Assembly: GCA_032881465.1 (NCBI GenBank)
Contig: CP126168.1
Coordinates: 186,001 to 250,000 of the forward strand
DNA: 64,000 nucleotides
DNA from: Parvibaculaceae bacterium PLY_AMNH_Bact1
GTDB lineage: Bacteria; Pseudomonadota; Alphaproteobacteria; Parvibaculales; Parvibaculaceae
Reading direction: 5' to 3'
Of the stretch, positions 52,647 to 60,583 are shown one piece after another. Under the pieces are notes generated by a model, which was given only the letters and a program-made list of their open reading frames with translations, was not told the DNA's origin and made no database searches. Position 1 is the stretch's first letter. Each line of letters begins with the position of its first letter. Made by a program: the position numbers and the translations under genes.

Positions 52647-52880
52647 CTATCCTTTCCCACCTGCAATTCCGTCCCGCGGACGTTTTGGCAAGCGGCTCCA
52701 AATGGATTGGGCAACACTGAGGGCAATGACAAAAAGAAGAAAAACCGCGACGATCCGCAGGTCATTGAAGTCTGTGCCTTTGGTCCATGCGGGGAATTGG
52801 CCCCAGGCAAAATAAACGCCATAGCAGACGCCGGTGGCAATAGCGAGGCCAGCCACATGCCAGATCAATCGGTAGACCAC
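52647..52880 (-). CDS. Small two-helix membrane protein, end of the Rieske/haem b operon
   Basis: A 77-residue protein with two membrane helices (about residues 5-26 and 43-62) and a basic C-terminus. Its GTG start shares one base with the upstream TAG stop (TAGTG), so translation is coupled. No family is recognised. By place it may be a structural subunit of the redox module. Confidence 0.7.
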   Translation of the reverse strand: MVYRLIWHVAGLAIATGVCYGVYFAWGQFPAWTKGTDFNDLRIVAVFLLFVIALSVAQSIWSRLPKRPRDGIAGGKG

Positions 52881-53650
52881 TACAGAACCTCCACACTATT
52901 GAGGTCGACTTTGAAGACCATCAGGTCACCCCTGCGCTCAATCTGACCGTCGACACGCACTCGAGCAGCGACATATCTCTGCAGCTCCTCCTCAATTGGA
53001 TTTCCATCTTGATCCGATAGGAGGAAAAATTCGGTTCCCTCAACAGGCGCGGTGCTAACAAAAACCGCTGGCACACCGCCATTCAGACACAAATTGGCGC
53101 AGGCTTTGTGAGCAATCCCGGTTCCCGGGCGCATAGCGCCCACATAACACTTGCCGTCGCAAACCTCTCCGGTCAGTCTCCACGTGCCAAGATCCGTAAC
53201 AGACAGATCAATTGTGGCGCGCACATCATCAGTCAACCCTTCAGCCGACGCTTGTAGGGGGACTCGACGGCCTACCTGCAACATGTCGATCGTTCCGCGT
53301 TTCAGCAACACTCCACCGACATCCACGACTTGACCGGCGAGCGCCGCTGCTTTCGCCTGCACACCCCGTTTTCCTTGCCCCGCAAGAAGGAGCGTATGCC
53401 CATCGGGGTAGGTTTCATTGGGGGCAATGCGTACGAGAGGATAGGGCGCTGTTTCCAGAATACCTGTGAATGTTTTGTGCTGAAAGAAAAACCGGCCTGG
53501 CCCGGGATCGGGTTGCGTAGCAGAGATAAAGTACCCCGCACCCGCCATCGCTCCGACAAACATTACGATGATCAGAAGAAAGAGTGAACGGCTGCCACGC
53601 GGTACGCCCCGTATGTAACCGACAAAAAAATCATCATGCGTCTTGGGCAT
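52880..53650 (-). CDS. Membrane-anchored protein with C-x3-C pairs, Rieske/haem b operon
   Basis: A 256-residue protein of unknown function. One N-terminal membrane helix (about residues 22-43) leaves a large domain outside the membrane, probably periplasmic. The domain has a cysteine/histidine patch: Cys164 and Cys168 (EVCDGKCYVGAMRPG), His181, Cys184 and Cys188 (HKACANLCLNGGVPAVF). That could bind a metal or form disulfides; there is no CxxCH haem c site. The start shares one base with the upstream stop (TAATG). Conservation of the patch suggests a dedicated partner of the Rieske/haem protein. Confidence 0.75.
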   Translation of the reverse strand: MPKTHDDFFVGYIRGVPRGSRSLFLLIIVMFVGAMAGAGYFISATQPDPGPGRFFFQHKTFTGILETAPYPLVRIAPNETYPDGHTLLLAGQGKRGVQAKAAALAGQVVDVGGVLLKRGTIDMLQVGRRVPLQASAEGLTDDVRATIDLSVTDLGTWRLTGEVCDGKCYVGAMRPGTGIAHKACANLCLNGGVPAVFVSTAPVEGTEFFLLSDQDGNPIEEELQRYVAARVRVDGQIERRGDLMVFKVDLNSVEVL

Positions 53651-54705
53651 TAGGCACTCTCCCCAATGCGGACTGGATCAACATGCGTGCCCGGTGGGTT
53701 GGGTTTTGGATCAACCAGGATGTCGCCGTCTCTAAGCTGCAATCGATAGGTAGCGATTTTTTCGGTAAAGGGAGCGGGTGCACGCCCATCTTCAGGCCGG
53801 TACTGGAACCCGTGCCAGGGACAGGTGATACAACCATCGACAATGCGGCCTTCGCCTAAGGGACCGTTTTGATGAGCGCAGGCGTTGGATGTTGCAGACA
53901 GCTTCCCATCATATCGAAATATCGCGATGCGCTCGCCACCGGGCAGTGGCACCATGTGGCCATGCTCATCTTCAATTTCGTCTAACCGTGCGACATTGAT
54001 CCAGTCACCCTCAACAGTAGCAGCGGTGATCCGGTCCGCGTCTGTCTCGCGCTTTCCGGCCGCAATGTGGAGAGCCAACACGGTTGCAGAAAAGAAGACC
54101 ACGAGAATGGGGAAGATGGGGTCTGTAGCGCCCTGCATGTACCCAAAAAGCACATGCGCCACCAGGGAGGTGTAGCCCACATAAATGATCATATGGAGTG
54201 CCTTCCAGAACGGAGGCGTGAAGAACTTCAACCAGAAATCATGGCTTGTAACGGCGAGTACCAACAGGACGAACAGCGAGAATATACCGAAGGCTTCAAA
54301 GGGGAAGCCAAGAAACTGCCCATAGTCGACATTGCTGGTGAGAAGGGCGACATATCGGTCAGTCGGCGAGAAGACATAATACCAATCAATGACATAGCTT
54401 GCATGGGTCAGCGCGACGGCGAAAGTGAGGACGCCCAGGTGTCGGCGATTATAGAGCAGCGGCAGAAACCGCCTGTCGAGTCGGGCCAGCGGACCAATGC
54501 ATAGGATGAGCGAGAGCAGTATGAACGCGCAGGTGCCAAACGCACGCATGCGCAGAATGGGATAGTTCACCTGTTCCGAGCGCTCAATCTCCATGGGCGC
54601 GTATTTGAGGAACAGAACGATGTAAAGCGCGATGCCTGCAAGTGCGACGAGATCATAAACATACTTGTTGGGGTTCCACTGGACTGGCGTGTATTTGACG
54701 CTCAT
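53650..54705 (-). CDS. Ferric-reductase-like haem b membrane protein fused to a Rieske domain
   Basis: A 351-residue fusion. The first about 215 residues hold roughly six helices with histidines at 89/101 and 171/184, a spacing of 12-13 as in bis-His haem b sites of ferric reductase/MsrQ proteins. The C-terminal 120 residues are a Rieske 2Fe-2S domain: Cys276-Ala-His278 and Cys295-Pro-Trp-His298. Electrons could pass between the soluble cluster and membrane haems; donor and acceptor are unknown. No FAD or NAD domain is present. Translationally coupled with both neighbours by overlapping stop/start codons. Confidence 0.85.
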   Translation of the reverse strand: MSVKYTPVQWNPNKYVYDLVALAGIALYIVLFLKYAPMEIERSEQVNYPILRMRAFGTCAFILLSLILCIGPLARLDRRFLPLLYNRRHLGVLTFAVALTHASYVIDWYYVFSPTDRYVALLTSNVDYGQFLGFPFEAFGIFSLFVLLVLAVTSHDFWLKFFTPPFWKALHMIIYVGYTSLVAHVLFGYMQGATDPIFPILVVFFSATVLALHIAAGKRETDADRITAATVEGDWINVARLDEIEDEHGHMVPLPGGERIAIFRYDGKLSATSNACAHQNGPLGEGRIVDGCITCPWHGFQYRPEDGRAPAPFTEKIATYRLQLRDGDILVDPKPNPPGTHVDPVRIGESA

Positions 54706-54866
54706 CGTGTCCCCTCCTGGCTGGTGGCAGGCGGGGAGAGCTGGACCGGCGCGTGGTCAGCACTTTGCTGAGTGTGAATGACGCCTGCGATAGCAAAAAG
54801 CAACGGCAGGATGAGGGCCAGTCCGCGCCAGATCGCAAAATGGGCAGTTCTGTGTCGTCTTTTCAC
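54702..54866 (-). CDS. 54-residue membrane peptide, Rieske/haem b operon
   Basis: A short frame from GTG (54866-54864) to TGA overlapping the ATG of the Rieske fusion gene (ATGA). The product has a basic N-terminus (KRRHRTAHFAIWR), one hydrophobic helix (LALILPLLFAIAGVI) and a proline-rich end. AGGGG stands about seven bases before the GTG. The tight spacing (9 bp from the upstream gene, 4-base overlap downstream) supports it as a real gene. Function unknown; a small subunit or assembly factor is inferred. Confidence 0.6.
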   Translation of the reverse strand: MKRRHRTAHFAIWRGLALILPLLFAIAGVIHTQQSADHAPVQLSPPATSQEGTR

Positions 54867-54875
54867 GGGCAGCCC

Positions 54876-55088
54876 CTAGCTTGCTTTAAGTTCAAGGCGG
54901 ACCCAGCGCAAAACGACCAAAGGCCAAAGGCTGACAATGGCTGGGATAAGCAAAGGACGAAACAGATAGGCACCGCGGGCGTCTTCATCGATCCGGTCTA
55001 CGCCGATCAGAAGAAACAAGGCAGCAACCCCGACACCCACAAGGGCGTACATGCGCAATGCAGCCAGCGTCACTTCAGCAAAATCCAT
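54876..55088 (-). CDS. Small membrane protein, first gene of the Rieske/haem b operon
   Basis: A 70-residue protein with two hydrophobic helices (about residues 10-30 and 43-62). It is not assigned to a family. It starts the five-gene unit in which all junctions are 9 bp or less or overlap. ATG is used; a GGGGGG run lies just upstream. Divergent from a secreted esterase gene. Confidence 0.7.
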   Translation of the reverse strand: MDFAEVTLAALRMYALVGVGVAALFLLIGVDRIDEDARGAYLFRPLLIPAIVSLWPLVVLRWVRLELKAS

Positions 55089-55272: not shown

Positions 55273-56106
55273 GTGTCCCGTTTTTTTTCTATCAATCTGC
55301 TCATAGTTTGTGCACTTGCAAGTTTCCTTGCGCAGCCCGCTTCGGCGTGTGGAACGAGCCAAAGAGATTGTGTCATAGGATCAGGTGACTATCGGATCTA
55401 CCTGCCCGAAAATTTGGCTGGTGAGCCGCCTGCCGGAGCCGTCCTCTTTTTCCATGGGTGGAAGGGGTCGTCCCAGGGGGTCATGCGCAACGCAAGCATG
55501 CGGGCAATGAGTGATCGCCTCAACATCGCACTCATCGCCGCAAACGGTCTTCGCGGTGGTTGGTCATTTCCAGGAGCACCAGCAAGAACCAGAAACGAAC
55601 TCGAGTATGTGGAAGAGGTATTGGAAGATGTGCAGGTGCGGTTCAACGTACCTAAATCCAGAATTCTGGCGTCTGGCTTTTCGCTAGGCGCTTCGATGGT
55701 CTGGAGTCTGTCATGTTATATGGGTGACAAGTTCGCAGGTTTTGCACCTGTGGCGGGAACGTTCTGGAATCCGCTTCCAGAAACCTGTCCAAGTGGCCCG
55801 CCCAACCTCATACATTATCACGGGCGAAAAGACGGTACTTTTCCCTTGGCAGGGCGTGCGATTGCTGGCGGTCTCTATCATCAGGGAAATACACATGAGA
55901 GTTTTGATCTCTGGCACTCTCAGGGTCAATGTGAGACAGAAGAACCGCTGATCACTGAATCCGGGATCTTTCAGTGTGAACGTAGATCTGGATGCGGGAG
56001 CAGCGTTTTGGAACTTTGCCTCCATGAGGGGGGGCATGTTTATCGCGCTGCGTGGATTGAACGCAGCTGGGGCATTCTGTCCGACCTCAAGGGTTGGGAG
56101 CATTAG
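55273..56106 (+). CDS. Secreted PHB-depolymerase/feruloyl-esterase-like hydrolase
   Basis: A 277-residue alpha/beta hydrolase of the LpqC/PhbZ-like type with a signal peptide (NLLIVCALASFLAQPASAC). The oxyanion region is LFFHGWKGSSQG, the nucleophile is in ASGFSLGASM (GxSxG), the acid in YHGRKDGTFP and the histidine in HEGGHVYRAAW. Multiple cysteines suggest disulfides. Substrate could be a polyester or a phenolic ester. GTG start with GAGGG upstream. It overlaps the upstream end of the CoA-transferase frame slightly. Confidence 0.85.
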   Translation: MSRFFSINLLIVCALASFLAQPASACGTSQRDCVIGSGDYRIYLPENLAGEPPAGAVLFFHGWKGSSQGVMRNASMRAMSDRLNIALIAANGLRGGWSFPGAPARTRNELEYVEEVLEDVQVRFNVPKSRILASGFSLGASMVWSLSCYMGDKFAGFAPVAGTFWNPLPETCPSGPPNLIHYHGRKDGTFPLAGRAIAGGLYHQGNTHESFDLWHSQGQCETEEPLITESGIFQCERRSGCGSSVLELCLHEGGHVYRAAWIERSWGILSDLKGWEH

Positions 56107-56129
56107 GCTCAGGCCGTAGAGAAAGCAGC

Positions 56130-57404
56130 ATGAAGACTGACGAGCAGACGCAAAATGGAGGTGGCCCCCTCTCTGGCCTGACAGTGCTGGACCTGTCCCG
56201 GATCCTTGCTGGTCCAACGGCGACGCAATTGCTGGGCGACCTGGGTGCGGAGATCATAAAGATCGAGCGGCCTGGCAAAGGGGATGACACCCGCGCATGG
56301 GGGCCACCATTCCTTCAAGACGCAGAAGGTAATGACACGGAAGAAAGTGCTTACTATTTGTCCTCAAACCGCAACAAGAAATCGGTCGCCATCAATTTGG
56401 CAAATGAGGAGGGACGGGAGCTCATTCGTCAATTGGCGGACAGCGCAGACATTCTGGTTGAAAACTTCAAGGTGGGGGATCTCGCGCGCCATGGGCTGGA
56501 CTACAAGTCTCTCTCTCAGAGAAACGCTCGCCTGATCTACTGTTCTATTTCAGGTTTTGGGCAAACCGGCCCCTACGCCCCACGAGCGGGATATGATTTT
56601 CTCATTCAGGGCATGGGTGGGATTATGAGTATCACCGGTGACCCCGTGGATCAGGCGAACAGCACTGGGCCGATGAAGGTTGGGGTTGGAATTGCAGATG
56701 TCATGTGCGGCATGTATGCGACGGTCGGAATTCTGGCGGCACTGGAAGCGCGCCACAAGACCGGCACCGGTCAGCATATAGACATCTCGCTTCTGGACAC
56801 TCAGGTGGCCTGGCTGGTCAATCAGGGTGCCTCTTATCTTGTCTCAGGAGAAACCCCGGTCCCTTTAGGGAATGGACATCCGACCATTGTGCCTTATGAG
56901 ACTTTCCCCGGTTCTGACAAGGCCTTCATCCTTGCCGTTGGAAACGATGGCCAGTTTTCGAAGTTCTGCGCGGTGGCAGGTGCTGAGCACCTGTCTTCAG
57001 ATAAGCGATTTGCCAGGAATGTTGATCGTGTGCGGAACCGTGATGTGTTGGTTCCTTTGTTGCAGGGGCTAACTCGAAAAAAATCAGCATCAGAATGGAT
57101 TGAGCTATTGGAAAGTGCAGGGGTTCCTTGCGGGCCGATTAACACCATTCCGGAGGCTTTTGCGGATCCCCAAATTCAACACAGAGAAATGAAAGTCGAG
57201 ATGCCGCATCCAACCTCAGGCAGTGGATCTGTTTCGCTCATTGGCAATCCACTCAAGCTGAGTAAGACACCCGTTCAGTACGACCGCCCGCCCCCAATCC
57301 GCGGTGCAGACACGAAGACTGTTCTGGCAAGCAAGCTCCATCTCTCTGAAGAAGAGATCGCTGAACTCGCGGCGGCCGGCGTAGTAGAGGACAAGAAGAT
57401 ATGA
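56130..57404 (+). CDS. CaiB/BaiF family CoA-transferase
   Basis: A 424-residue class III CoA-transferase with the opening LSGLTVLDLSRILAGPTATQ, IKIERPGKGDDTRAWGPP, the catalytic aspartate in GYDFLIQGMGG and GTGQHIDISLLDTQVAWL. Members move CoA between a carboxylic acid and an acyl-CoA; the pair is not readable here. The ATG at 56130 is preferred to an in-frame ATG 36 bp earlier that lies inside the esterase gene. It overlaps the ThDP enzyme by four bases (ATGA), implying a two-step pathway. Confidence 0.9.
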   Translation: MKTDEQTQNGGGPLSGLTVLDLSRILAGPTATQLLGDLGAEIIKIERPGKGDDTRAWGPPFLQDAEGNDTEESAYYLSSNRNKKSVAINLANEEGRELIRQLADSADILVENFKVGDLARHGLDYKSLSQRNARLIYCSISGFGQTGPYAPRAGYDFLIQGMGGIMSITGDPVDQANSTGPMKVGVGIADVMCGMYATVGILAALEARHKTGTGQHIDISLLDTQVAWLVNQGASYLVSGETPVPLGNGHPTIVPYETFPGSDKAFILAVGNDGQFSKFCAVAGAEHLSSDKRFARNVDRVRNRDVLVPLLQGLTRKKSASEWIELLESAGVPCGPINTIPEAFADPQIQHREMKVEMPHPTSGSGSVSLIGNPLKLSKTPVQYDRPPPIRGADTKTVLASKLHLSEEEIAELAAAGVVEDKKI

Positions 57405-59005
57405 AAACCGGCGCGGAGATTATTGCAGATCACCTGCATGGGGCCGGGTGCCGGACGGCCTTCGGTATTCCGGGCGGCGAAGTTCTCGCACTGGTTGATG
57501 CTCTTAGCCAAAGTGGTATTCAGTTTGTCCTGACGAAACACGAAAATTCTGCAGGCTTCATGGCGGAGGGCGCATGGCATGCAACCGGTGCGCCAGGTAT
57601 TCTTGTCGCAACGCTGGGACCAGGCGTTGCAAATGCGGTGAATGTCGTTGCCAACGCTCATCAGGATAAAGTGCCCCTCATCTTCCTCACGGGGCGCGTT
57701 GATGCGACGGAAGCTGAAACCTATACCCACCAGGTCTTTGATCATCAGGCGCTGTTGCGGCCGATTGTAAAGGCGAGCTTTTGTGCAGCATCTGGGGCGG
57801 TGGGTGCCATGATCGAAAAAGCCCTTCTCGTTGCGACAGAGGGTCAGCCGGGCCCCGTTCATATTGACGTGCCGATTGGTGTTGCCGAAGGGGCAGTACC
57901 AGAAGCGGAGCGGGTTTTTTCAGCCTCACCAGCTCTCGGTGCGCCAAATGCTGCGGGGCTTGAGCAGGTTGTTGCAAGCCTAGAGAATGCGGAACGCCCA
58001 CTGGCGATTGCAGGCGTTGATGCGGTCAACGAAGAGGCGGGTACCGCCATTCAGGCATTTTGCGAGCGATATGGCGTTCCCCTCATTACAAGTTATAAGG
58101 GGAAGGGATTGATTGATGAGACCCATCCGCTGGTCATCGGTGGAGCGGGGCTGTCGCCCAAGGCTGACAAGGTGTTAATGCCGCTCATCAATAAGTCTGA
58201 TCTGATTTTTCTGCTTGGTTATGATCCAATTGAGATGCGCGTGGGCTGGCGAAACCCGTGGGGGCCAGAAAAACAGGTGGTGGAAATAACACCAGTCGTT
58301 AGGACCCATGGCATGCACCGGGTCACAGAGAGTTTCCTCTCCCCGTTATCGGATACGCTCTCCGCCTTGTTTGTAGCTAAGCCGCGAGATACATGGGCAG
58401 ACGGCGGGGCAGCAGAAGCGCGAACGGATCTCGCGAACGCGTTCGCAACCGCGGTTGAGAGTTTTTCTCCCGGTCGTGTCTACGACGCACTGCGCAAAGT
58501 GCTGCCAGCAACCACTGTGATGACGACGGATAGTGGCGCGCATCGCATTTTGCTCTCACAAAAATGGACAACCCATGCGCCTCGTACGCTCTTGCAATCC
58601 TCAGCGCTCTGTACAATGGGCTGCGCTGTGCCGATTGCAGCAGGCTACAAGCTCTGTGCTCCTGAGGTGCCGGTGGCAACTGTGTTGGGTGACGCAGGCC
58701 TTGAAATGATCTTGGGCGAACTCGCCACCATTCGCGACTTGAATCTCCCCCTCATCATCACCGTAATGGTCGACGAAAGCCTTGGACTCATTGAGATGAA
58801 ACAACGGGCAATGGGCCGCTCGAATGTAGGGGTGGATTTTGACGGTACTGACTTTCCGGCAGTTGCAGAGGCCATGGGAGGCAAAGGCTTTTGGATTGAT
58901 GATGTTGAATCCTTGGAGAGAGAAGCGAAAGCGGCTTTAAGCCGAGACAGCTTCACGCTGCTAGCTTGTCGTATTGGTCGCCGCGCGTATGATGGCGCTT
59001 TTTAG
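57401..59005 (+). CDS. Acetolactate synthase-like ThDP-dependent enzyme
   Basis: A 534-residue thiamine-diphosphate enzyme with the three-domain ALS/POX fold. The catalytic glutamate is in LTKHENSAGFMAEG, the central domain spans about 185-330, and the ThDP-Mg motif begins GDAGLEMILGELATIRDLNL. A role as oxalyl-CoA decarboxylase or 2-hydroxyacyl-CoA lyase would suit the coupled CoA-transferase, but key signatures could not be checked and a 2-oxoacid decarboxylase is equally possible. Confidence 0.85.
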   Translation: MKTGAEIIADHLHGAGCRTAFGIPGGEVLALVDALSQSGIQFVLTKHENSAGFMAEGAWHATGAPGILVATLGPGVANAVNVVANAHQDKVPLIFLTGRVDATEAETYTHQVFDHQALLRPIVKASFCAASGAVGAMIEKALLVATEGQPGPVHIDVPIGVAEGAVPEAERVFSASPALGAPNAAGLEQVVASLENAERPLAIAGVDAVNEEAGTAIQAFCERYGVPLITSYKGKGLIDETHPLVIGGAGLSPKADKVLMPLINKSDLIFLLGYDPIEMRVGWRNPWGPEKQVVEITPVVRTHGMHRVTESFLSPLSDTLSALFVAKPRDTWADGGAAEARTDLANAFATAVESFSPGRVYDALRKVLPATTVMTTDSGAHRILLSQKWTTHAPRTLLQSSALCTMGCAVPIAAGYKLCAPEVPVATVLGDAGLEMILGELATIRDLNLPLIITVMVDESLGLIEMKQRAMGRSNVGVDFDGTDFPAVAEAMGGKGFWIDDVESLEREAKAALSRDSFTLLACRIGRRAYDGAF

Positions 59006-59197
59006 GCAGGCGTCGCCCATTTAGGAGGCATTTCCCAGCGCGGTGATCACAAATCTGTGTACGGTTGATGATCAAAAACGTGTCGCTCATCGCGCACTCT
59101 CAAATGCAAGTGAACAACGGCTGAAGTGTGTGGAAATCAACTTCTGATTGGTGCTACGGCTAGTACTGGGTACGCGGCATTAAATTGAGAGTGATCA

Positions 59198-60583
59198 ATG
59201 ACATACACAGACGCATTCGGATCAGATGTAACACTGGATAAGAAGTCTACGCTTGATCATTGGAATAGGGTATCCCGCGCATTCCTCTCCCATTCGTCTG
59301 CCACACCCAATCATCTGGCGTCTGTTCTCGAAGAAGCCCCGACCTTTGCTCTTGCTCACGCGTTTCAAGGCATCTCCTATCTGACACTGGGTCGCAAAGA
59401 GCTGATTGAGAATGCGCGCATGGGCCTGGCAAACGCGAAGCAGGCCGTGGCGACTGTCGGCTGCACCAAAAGAGAAGGGCAATACATTGAAGCGTTGGAG
59501 ACTTGGCTTGCAGGCCATCCCGTTCAGGCTGCTGCTGTCATGGACGATGTGTTGGCGGAAACGCCAGGCGATGCGATGGCCTTGAAACTTGGTCACGCCA
59601 TTCGCTTTATTCTGGGTGACGCAAAAGGCATGCGGCGATCCCTTGAAGCGGTTTTACCGGTATACGACAATGCGCATCCCGCCACGGGGTATGTACTGGG
59701 GTGTCACGCCTTTTCAGCAGAAGAGACTGGTGATTACGAGCTTGCGGAAGCCCAGGGTCGAAAAGGCTTGGAAATGGCGCCAGATGACGCCTGGGGGCTC
59801 CATGCGATTGCGCACGTTTTTGACATGACTGGTCAACCCATGGCGGGTGCAGGATGGTTAGGCGGTCAGACAGAGCGATGGGCTCACTGCAACAATTTCG
59901 GATTCCATGTCTGGTGGCATCTCGCGCTCTTTTTGCTCGCAATCGGCGCAACAGACGAAGTGCTTGACCTTTACGATCAGAAATTCCGCGCAGAGCATAC
60001 CGATGACTATCGCGATATTTCAAACGCGGCGTCAATGTTGGTCCGCCTGGAGATTGAAGGCGTCTCGGTTGGAAACCGCTGGGAAGAGCTTACGGGTCTT
60101 TGTGAAAAGCGCACACAAGACGGTTGTGTTGTCTTTGCCGACCTGCACTACATCATGCCGCTCGCGCGCCTGGGTCGGCGAGAGGCGGCTGACGCACTGA
60201 TTGAGACGCTGACAAAGAACGCGACAAGTATGTCAGGTCACATGAGTTCTGTTGCTCGGACATCGGGCGTACCTGCAGCGCGGGGTATTCTCGCTTACTA
60301 TCGAGGAAACTACCGCGAGGCCTACAGAGATTTGGCCGCAGCACGTCCCTCCATGCAGAGCGTGGGCGGCAGCCATGCGCAAAGGGATGTCTTTGAACGG
60401 CTGACGGTAGATGCCGCGACGCGTGCGGGTCTTTTGGACGATGCAATCGCCATTCTTCAGGATCGGGAAAAGAACCGAGGTGCCCCTGATGCGTTTTCGA
60501 CCGCGCGCCTAAAATCATCCAAGGCAGAAGCTGTAGATGAAGAGCCTCTGGTAGTGGGCGTTTCAGCTCCCCTCCTTGCCTAA
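59198..60583 (+). CDS. Tetratricopeptide-repeat protein of the TTC38 type (paralogue)
   Basis: A 461-residue helical protein with the same architecture as the 35870-37147 product: early VLEEAPTFALAHAFQGISYL, mid-protein HAIAHVFDMTGQPMAGAGWL and NNFGFHVWWHLALFLLAIGA, late GGSHAQRDVFERLTVDAATR. Family function is unknown. Separate transcription unit, 192 bp after the ThDP gene. Confidence 0.85.
   Translation: MTYTDAFGSDVTLDKKSTLDHWNRVSRAFLSHSSATPNHLASVLEEAPTFALAHAFQGISYLTLGRKELIENARMGLANAKQAVATVGCTKREGQYIEALETWLAGHPVQAAAVMDDVLAETPGDAMALKLGHAIRFILGDAKGMRRSLEAVLPVYDNAHPATGYVLGCHAFSAEETGDYELAEAQGRKGLEMAPDDAWGLHAIAHVFDMTGQPMAGAGWLGGQTERWAHCNNFGFHVWWHLALFLLAIGATDEVLDLYDQKFRAEHTDDYRDISNAASMLVRLEIEGVSVGNRWEELTGLCEKRTQDGCVVFADLHYIMPLARLGRREAADALIETLTKNATSMSGHMSSVARTSGVPAARGILAYYRGNYREAYRDLAAARPSMQSVGGSHAQRDVFERLTVDAATRAGLLDDAIAILQDREKNRGAPDAFSTARLKSSKAEAVDEEPLVVGVSAPLLA

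Follow-up and report, generated by a model that had tools for sequence, protein, structure and literature searches.

The ferric reductase domain (FRD) superfamily, to which the bacterial FRE and NOX proteins and the STEAP proteins belong, is built on a six-helix membrane core with two His pairs placed in two helices. STEAP and NOX proteins carry electrons across the membrane, and STEAP2-4 carry an NADPH-binding oxidoreductase domain. A survey of this superfamily published in 2013 distinguished one architecture (M4) with a Rieske domain and counted Rieske among four added electron-transfer domains; its main text nowhere uses the word 'operon' (PMC3591440). Another haem b membrane protein of the FRD kind is MsrQ (YedZ), which has a periplasmic partner; the MsrPQ system has been described as drawing electrons from the respiratory chain (PMC5449189), and the flavin reductase Fre has been named as a potential donor of MsrQ (PMC5676040). 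Here we describe five minus-strand genes in a 64,000-nucleotide stretch of DNA from Parvibaculaceae bacterium PLY_AMNH_Bact1 (GCA_032881465.1, CP126168.1:186,001-250,000), hereafter the window (positions 1-64,000). The five genes are a conserved, uncharacterised redox module of Alphaproteobacteria, and its core gene encodes a membrane domain of the FRD kind with a Rieske domain fused to it.

A sequence-only reading of this DNA had proposed a five-gene operon running from 55088 down to 52647, with junctions of 9 bp or less or overlapping. All five minus-strand open reading frames (ORFs) were confirmed as placed:

54876..55088, minus strand: Orf1, 70 aa, small membrane protein with two helices by eye
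54702..54866, minus strand: Orf2, 54 aa, GTG start, membrane peptide with one helix by eye and a basic/His N-terminus
53650..54705, minus strand: Orf3, the core protein, 351 aa, six-helix ferric-reductase/NOX/STEAP-type haem b domain followed by a C-terminal Rieske [2Fe-2S] domain
52880..53650, minus strand: Orf4, here called A256, 256 aa, N-terminal anchor helix followed by a Cys/His-bearing domain
52647..52880, minus strand: Orf5, 77 aa, GTG start, small membrane protein with two helices by eye

The junctions, as computed from these coordinates, are also as read: Orf1 and Orf2 are separated by 9 bases and the next three pairs overlap by 4, 1 and 1 bases. Orf1, Orf2, A256 and Orf5 matched no Pfam or NCBIfam family above cut-off, and no curated family of either database covers the module.

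The gene set recurs in other genomes. In the search of named genomes, 585 stretches matched the core gene at E 1e-3, probably including other Rieske proteins, and the best 80 were kept, all at E 2e-120 or better; neighbouring genes were compared in a set of 95 loci from which four duplicates (L025, L028, L030 and L042) had been removed. The A256 gene directly follows the core gene in 78 of the 80 named loci, a 4-base overlap being the commonest junction, and the two loci without it, L055 and L070, are cut off by a contig edge. In one locus from a metagenome-assembled genome (L079), the core gene and A256 form a single 611-aa frame. Full-length A256 was found in 16 of 385 class genomes, all of them among the 18 with the core gene. 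A relative of Orf1 lies upstream of the core gene in 94/95 loci, which are all the loci with enough flank. In 45 of these 94, Orf1 and Orf2 are a single protein with Orf2 as its C-terminal tail, and this fusion argues for a physical association of the two. Fusion is absent from the other 49, the window among them, and by eye a separate Orf2-like peptide is encoded between Orf1 and the core gene in 47 of the 49 (L046 and L071 were unclear). Two other counts of Orf2 were discarded, one with an iterated hidden Markov model that drifted onto Orf1 and was invalid, and one with a strict motif (29/95 loci) that was too narrow. Orf5-like proteins are encoded downstream in 78 of the 92 loci with enough flank, as counted with an iterated profile that may have widened. 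A chance neighbourhood of five genes was rejected, as A256, Orf1 and Orf2 recur beside the core gene across loci, and the co-occurrence expected of the proposed operon is therefore found.

The module is sparsely distributed. The core gene was detected in 18 of 385 class genomes (13 of 276 genera) and in five of the seven genomes from the window's genus (its own among the five); a search of the order found it absent from 33 genomes of other genera in the same family. It was also found in 7 of 339 genomes sampled from the phylum, all of the same class, the number of genomes outside the class not being shown for this sample. Among the named carriers are Roseibium, Roseovarius, Tateyamaria, Litoreibacter, Nisaea and Thalassobaculum. 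Five Rhizobium plasmids have copies, three of which are annotated merely as 'Rieske 2Fe-2S domain-containing protein'.

Pfam assigned both domains of Orf3 above cut-off, Ferric_reduct (PF01794) at residues 56-181 (44.7 bits, gathering score 28) and Rieske at residues 235-320 (56.8 bits, cut-off 20.3). The core sequences of the window and of 78 of the 80 named loci were aligned, leaving out L077, which is broken, and the fused L079. The putative haem ligands His89, His101, His171 and His184 and the Rieske ligands Cys276, His278, Cys295 and His298 (C-x-H...C-x-x-H) are invariant in 79/79 sequences; His155 is also invariant in 79/79, and His213 is kept in 78. The haem b protein with a fused Rieske domain and two bis-His pairs proposed from the letters alone is thus upheld, with its b haems and [2Fe-2S] cluster predicted from these ligands. 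An AlphaFold2 model of Orf3, for which 52 of 57 selected sequences were used (window included), reached a mean predicted local distance difference test (pLDDT) score of 86.3. In the model, His89 and His101 lie within helix 87-112 and His171 and His184 within helix 164-190, with a spacing of X11 in the first pair and X12 in the second.

Structural comparison placed the membrane part of Orf3 closest to STEAP2 (Z 18.0, root-mean-square deviation (rmsd) 3.4, 206 residues aligned; Foldseek matches re-aligned with VIA-align). STEAP4 (Z 17.6), STEAP1 (17.5) and NOX5 (16.2) followed, and DUOX was also matched. With the NOX5 core at Z 16.2, the STEAP-like fold is not specific to STEAP. The module therefore shares with the FRD superfamily the six-helix core, the two His pairs in two helices and the Ferric_reduct match. 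It differs from that superfamily in its five-gene operon with A256 and small subunits, and in bearing a Rieske domain after the last helix and no flavin adenine dinucleotide (FAD)/NAD(P)H domain. Such a domain had been reported missing by the sequence-only reading as well, and Pfam matched no such domain in the five proteins at E up to 1. The same reading had stated that the module is not one that can be named. This holds for the operon, on which literature searches found no paper among the matches listed, with most subscription journals and all preprints outside their coverage. It does not hold for the membrane part, which belongs to the ferric-reductase/NOX/STEAP superfamily and whose FRD-Rieske form was included in the 2013 survey (PMC3591440).

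Several described systems were compared with the module. Like MsrQ, Orf3 is an FRD membrane protein with a partner inferred to be periplasmic, but it has a Rieske domain, which MsrQ has not. Its score against the NCBIfam MsrQ equivalog is 33.1 bits where the cut-off is 130, so that MsrQ identity was rejected; the sequence-only reading, which a characterised MsrPQ-type identity would have contradicted, stands in this respect. A Pfam scan of the four neighbouring genes in the window revealed no molybdoenzyme, and MsrP was not searched genome-wide. In comparison with the STEAP metalloreductases, the membrane core is alike but the module has no NADPH-binding oxidoreductase domain by Pfam. Cytochrome bc1 and b6f complexes also combine haem b and a Rieske cluster in a membrane complex, as predicted for the module; by contrast, the module has a Ferric_reduct core, a ferredoxin-type Rieske domain that is probably cytosolic, and no CxxCH motif. 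This identity was rejected, as no Pfam cytochrome b match was obtained at E up to 1. The absence of c-type haem noted by the sequence-only reading was confirmed: the CxxCH motif occurs in none of the five proteins, and across the 95 loci only two of the ORFs called up to 3 kb from the core gene have it.

The fold similarity to NOX5 and DUOX raises the question of a NOX-like bacterial oxidase that would produce superoxide, with the Rieske domain as electron entry. NOX proteins follow a rule of two His-X12/14-His motifs (PMC5676040). NOX identity was rejected for Orf3, in which the first pair, His-X11-His, breaks this rule and FAD/NADPH domains are absent. The same two features speak against a superoxide-producing oxidase, and the conserved A256 suggests a protein as acceptor, leaving this explanation very improbable.

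The C-terminal part of Orf3 superposed closely on the Rieske ferredoxin BphA3 (Z 16.0, rmsd 1.8, 104 aligned), and dioxygenase ferredoxins are the nearest relatives of this domain. It shares the CxH...CxxH ligands and the fold with BphA3 and AndAb and differs from them in being fused to a haem membrane protein, with haem rather than an oxygenase as the proposed acceptor. High-potential Rieske proteins of the bc1 type have disulphide cysteines at the positions that match Gly281 and Trp297 of Orf3, and both of these residues are invariant in the structure alignment. The Orf3 cluster should therefore be of the low-potential ferredoxin type, judging from these residues. Some structural alignments with NOX5 continue into the Rieske part, indicating that the Rieske domain stands where NOX proteins have their dehydrogenase domain, a cytosolic one in the eukaryotic proteins (PMC3591440). 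No twin-arginine pair was seen before the last of the six helices, and the simplest reading is that the Rieske domain is cytosolic; the loop charges by themselves decide little on orientation.

Putting together the conserved gene set, the domain make-up, the predicted core fold, the invariant ligands and the linkage to Rieske enzymes described below, we tentatively favour, with some doubt, reading the operon as a membrane electron-transfer complex of the FRD (NOX/STEAP) kind. In this complex, the Rieske domain would replace the FAD/NAD(P)H domain and electrons would be relayed from a donor to A256. They would enter on the cytosolic side from soluble enzymes that have their own Rieske domain, where such enzymes are present: a glutamate-synthase-like protein with Rieske and flavin mononucleotide (FMN) domains, a pyruvate-oxidase-like protein with Rieske and thiamine pyrophosphate (TPP) domains, or in one lineage a Rieske-FMN-reductase. 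From there, electrons would reach the Rieske cluster of Orf3, traverse the membrane via two stacked b haems held by His89/101 and His171/184, and be handed over, on the periplasmic side, to the Cys3/His domain of A256. A256 might pass them on or keep a metal site (copper is the best guess) or a thiol site reduced, and Orf1, Orf2 and Orf5 would be small membrane subunits. We infer the cofactor content, the direction of flow, the donors, the acceptor, the side of the Rieske domain and the side of A256. If this reading is true, Alphaproteobacteria have an uncharacterised electron route between cytosol and periplasm in which a Rieske cluster stands in for the NADPH-flavin domain known from NOX/STEAP proteins.

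The sequence-only reading had singled out Cys164, Cys168, Cys184 and Cys188 of A256. Across 78 aligned A256 sequences (L108 was left out), Asp165, Lys167, Cys168, His181, Cys184 and Cys188 are invariant in 78/78. Three of the four cysteines thus stood and His181 belongs to the motif, whereas Cys164 is replaced by Val in 6/78 and by Val or Ile in more distant copies. The AlphaFold2 model of A256, for which 60 of 61 selected sequences were used (window included), has a mean pLDDT of 89.5; after an N-terminal helix, its structure is mostly beta. Fold searches with it yielded generic OB folds at Z 8.0 or below, mainly over residues 53-150, with nothing specific among them, and a search of the A256 profile against PDB sequences gave nothing convincing, the best match being a sporulation protein at E 0.006. 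Therefore, no function was read from the A256 fold. The domain after the anchor helix, whose first half is OB-like and whose second half holds the six invariant residues, is probably periplasmic.

The C-terminal domain of A256 also occurs as a stand-alone protein of about 140 to 170 aa at 14 places in the class sample, with N-termini that look signal-like by eye. These relatives are paired with a second Cys-rich protein at 14/14 places, and one copy (L220) is without the first Cys. A SCO1/SenC gene follows at 8/14 places; the neighbour queries were taken from one of the 14 places and some of the six others lie on short contigs. Pfam confirmed SCO1 in 4/4 genes tested. This neighbourhood makes copper the best guess for A256, as a pointer from gene context and not a proof. 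It is also consistent with a STEAP-like metalloreductase, a special case of the favoured relay, in which periplasmic Cu(II) or Fe(III) would be reduced and A256 would bind metal. STEAP proteins are moreover the best fold match of the core. Set against this is that no iron or copper uptake gene was recognised by eye among the recurring neighbour clusters, not all of which were family-searched, and we consider a metalloreductase unlikely. As a separate observation, the A256-domain relative, the Cys-rich protein of about 170 aa (one tested, no Pfam family) and, at 8/14 places, SCO1/SenC make up a conserved set at L208-L221 that is possibly an undescribed copper or oxidase-assembly set.

Neighbour clustering in the 95 loci yielded two recurring enzymes that have a Rieske domain of their own. 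The first is a 536-aa protein with Rieske and glutamate-synthase-type (FMN) domains, and the second a 661-aa protein with Rieske and TPP enzyme domains (Pfam, one of each tested). Within 6 kb of the core gene, Rieske-FMN was found in 35 loci, Rieske-TPP in 30 and both in 25 (n=95), and 61 of these 65 genes are on the module's strand. A third enzyme, a fusion of Rieske with an NADPH-dependent FMN-reductase-like domain (Rieske-FMN_red), takes the place of A256 directly after the core gene in two genomes:

L038:6257-7384 and L039:3359-4474: Rieske-FMN_red fusion (Pfam on the first)

The naming of Fre as a potential MsrQ donor provides a parallel for this variant. At least one of the three enzymes lies within 6 kb in 42/95 loci. 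The raw count had been 48 loci with a further Rieske motif; removed from it were the core-A256 fusion, Rieske proteins of another kind (L098 and L099), a contig-end fragment (L091) and two proteins of 225 aa, probably not Rieske. No ORF with a Rieske motif was found in 700 kb of outer flanks of the same loci.

The linkage extends to genome content. A glutamate-synthase-like match at E 1e-120 was present in 14 of 385 class genomes and included the Rieske part in nine. Eight of these nine have the core gene, the exception being a genome that is 67% complete, and the core gene is found in none of the five whose match excludes the Rieske part. Rieske-TPP was present in 15 of the 385, seven of them with the core gene (in G381 the contig end cuts before the Rieske part). 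With the window's genus removed, the core gene occurs in 5/6 genomes with the Rieske-glutamate-synthase-like protein (hypergeometric p 3e-7) and in 4/12 with Rieske-TPP (p 6e-4), both values ignoring phylogeny. The window's genome has both enzymes outside the window, Rieske-glutamate-synthase-like at contig positions 257905-259500 and Rieske-TPP at 303749-305728. From gene context, we regard Rieske-FMN, Rieske-TPP and Rieske-FMN_red as candidate donors, not as fixed or obligatory subunits. The sequence-only reading had left the electron donor unknown; the choice can now be narrowed to Rieske-bearing flavin and TPP enzymes near relatives of the module.

The nature of these enzymes bears on where the electrons might go. 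For the Rieske-TPP protein of the window's genome, the top NCBIfam model is pyruvate oxidase, and ubiquinone-dependent pyruvate dehydrogenase is one of those that follow, all of them below cut-off. This likeness of the soluble partners to respiratory oxidising enzymes would suit a quinone-linked path, in which cytosolic Rieske enzymes would deliver electrons via Orf3 to the ubiquinone pool and A256 would be a structural or assembly factor. However, the fold matches of the core, STEAP and NOX, move electrons from one side of the membrane to the other, and A256, with its invariant Cys/His site and its probable periplasmic location, is kept in 78/80 loci, so that such a path appears quite unlikely. 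Glutamate synthases, on the other hand, consume electrons, which would fit a reverse flow from quinol through the haems and the Rieske domain to cytosolic enzymes that carry out reductions, for example the glutamate-synthase-like protein. Ferredoxin-type Rieske domains are of low potential in characterised members, so that transfer from quinol to the Rieske cluster would be uphill, and a reverse flow leaves the periplasmic A256 without a role. Even with the precedent of MsrPQ, which includes a distant relative of the core and is described as taking electrons from the respiratory chain (PMC5449189), we hold reverse flow to be improbable.

Returning to the outward relay from a donor to A256, the unrelated enzymes found here may each have gained a Rieske domain and hand electrons, Rieske to Rieske, to one haem b module that would serve as a common membrane port with a Rieske plug and export them to a periplasmic subunit bearing a metal or thiol; we see this extension as possible but doubtful. 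If the relay is true, the Rieske-glutamate-synthase-like and Rieske-TPP proteins, two families without known function, gain a plausible redox partner.

Several findings weigh against the relay. Among the 18 class genomes that have the core gene, 10 lack both Rieske-FMN and Rieske-TPP at E 1e-120. The Rieske-FMN_red gene is present in two of these ten, and a search of the other eight with the Rieske-FMN_red fusion matched Rieske parts only, belonging to the core gene and to further Rieske proteins. With none of the three enzymes found in these eight genomes, they cannot be the sole donors. Conversely, Rieske-TPP is found without the core gene in 8 of its 15 genomes. The p-values for partner co-occurrence ignore phylogeny, and the genome searches for partners, in which no more than three candidates per genome were scored, may have missed some. 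In the window's genome, the two candidate donors lie about 17 and 63 kb from the operon. Furthermore, the link of SCO1 to A256 is indirect, and the first haem pair, His-X11-His, is one residue short of the NOX rule.

Five Rieske matches in the eight genomes were inspected, and no flavin or TPP domain was found in any of them. They comprise a Rieske protein of 527-550 aa (two, and a third by likeness), a lone Rieske ferredoxin and a Rieske-PhyH protein. The Rieske protein of about 530-550 aa has a long C-terminal part without a Pfam match (two tested) and is encoded at L225:232-1812, L226:1411-3060 and L230:1459-3096, in three genomes that have the core gene but not the usual Rieske partners.

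Other features of the Rieske enzymes were also observed. TPP-Rieske fusions are found at L164, L166-L173 and G000:C1:303749-305728, and four genomes have ORFs of about 870-925 aa, of which one (L171) was tested with Pfam and has additional CDGSH and Fer4_19 iron-sulphur domains. A survey of CDGSH proteins mentions members with Rieske and glutamate-synthase domains (PMC5859297). In the window's genome, a cation/proton-antiporter-like gene directly precedes the Rieske-glutamate-synthase-like gene; this antiporter cluster occurs in 15/95 loci, and the pair is also found where the haem module lies elsewhere (L161:7899-10785 and L163:10003-12945).

On the plus strand, window positions 55273-60583 hold genes for a polyhydroxybutyrate (PHB)-depolymerase-like esterase, a CoA transferase, a TPP enzyme and a protein that clusters with TPR-like neighbours. 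Two of these were assigned by Pfam and are not part of the operon:

56094..57404, plus strand: family III CoA transferase, 436 aa
57401..59005, plus strand: acetolactate-synthase-like TPP enzyme without a Rieske domain, 534 aa

In NCBIfam, the CoA transferase remained below cut-off, with succinate-glutarate CoA-transferase as the nearest family, and no model scored above cut-off for the TPP enzyme among the matches listed (25 of 53). Some Roseobacter copies of the module adjoin tungstate- and tricarboxylate-transporter-like genes (labels by eye), an observation from few related loci that was not used. Judged by annotation, the TPP enzyme, CoA transferase and TPR protein are found together near the module on two Rhizobium plasmids, and parts of this set also occur at L073, L081 and L096.

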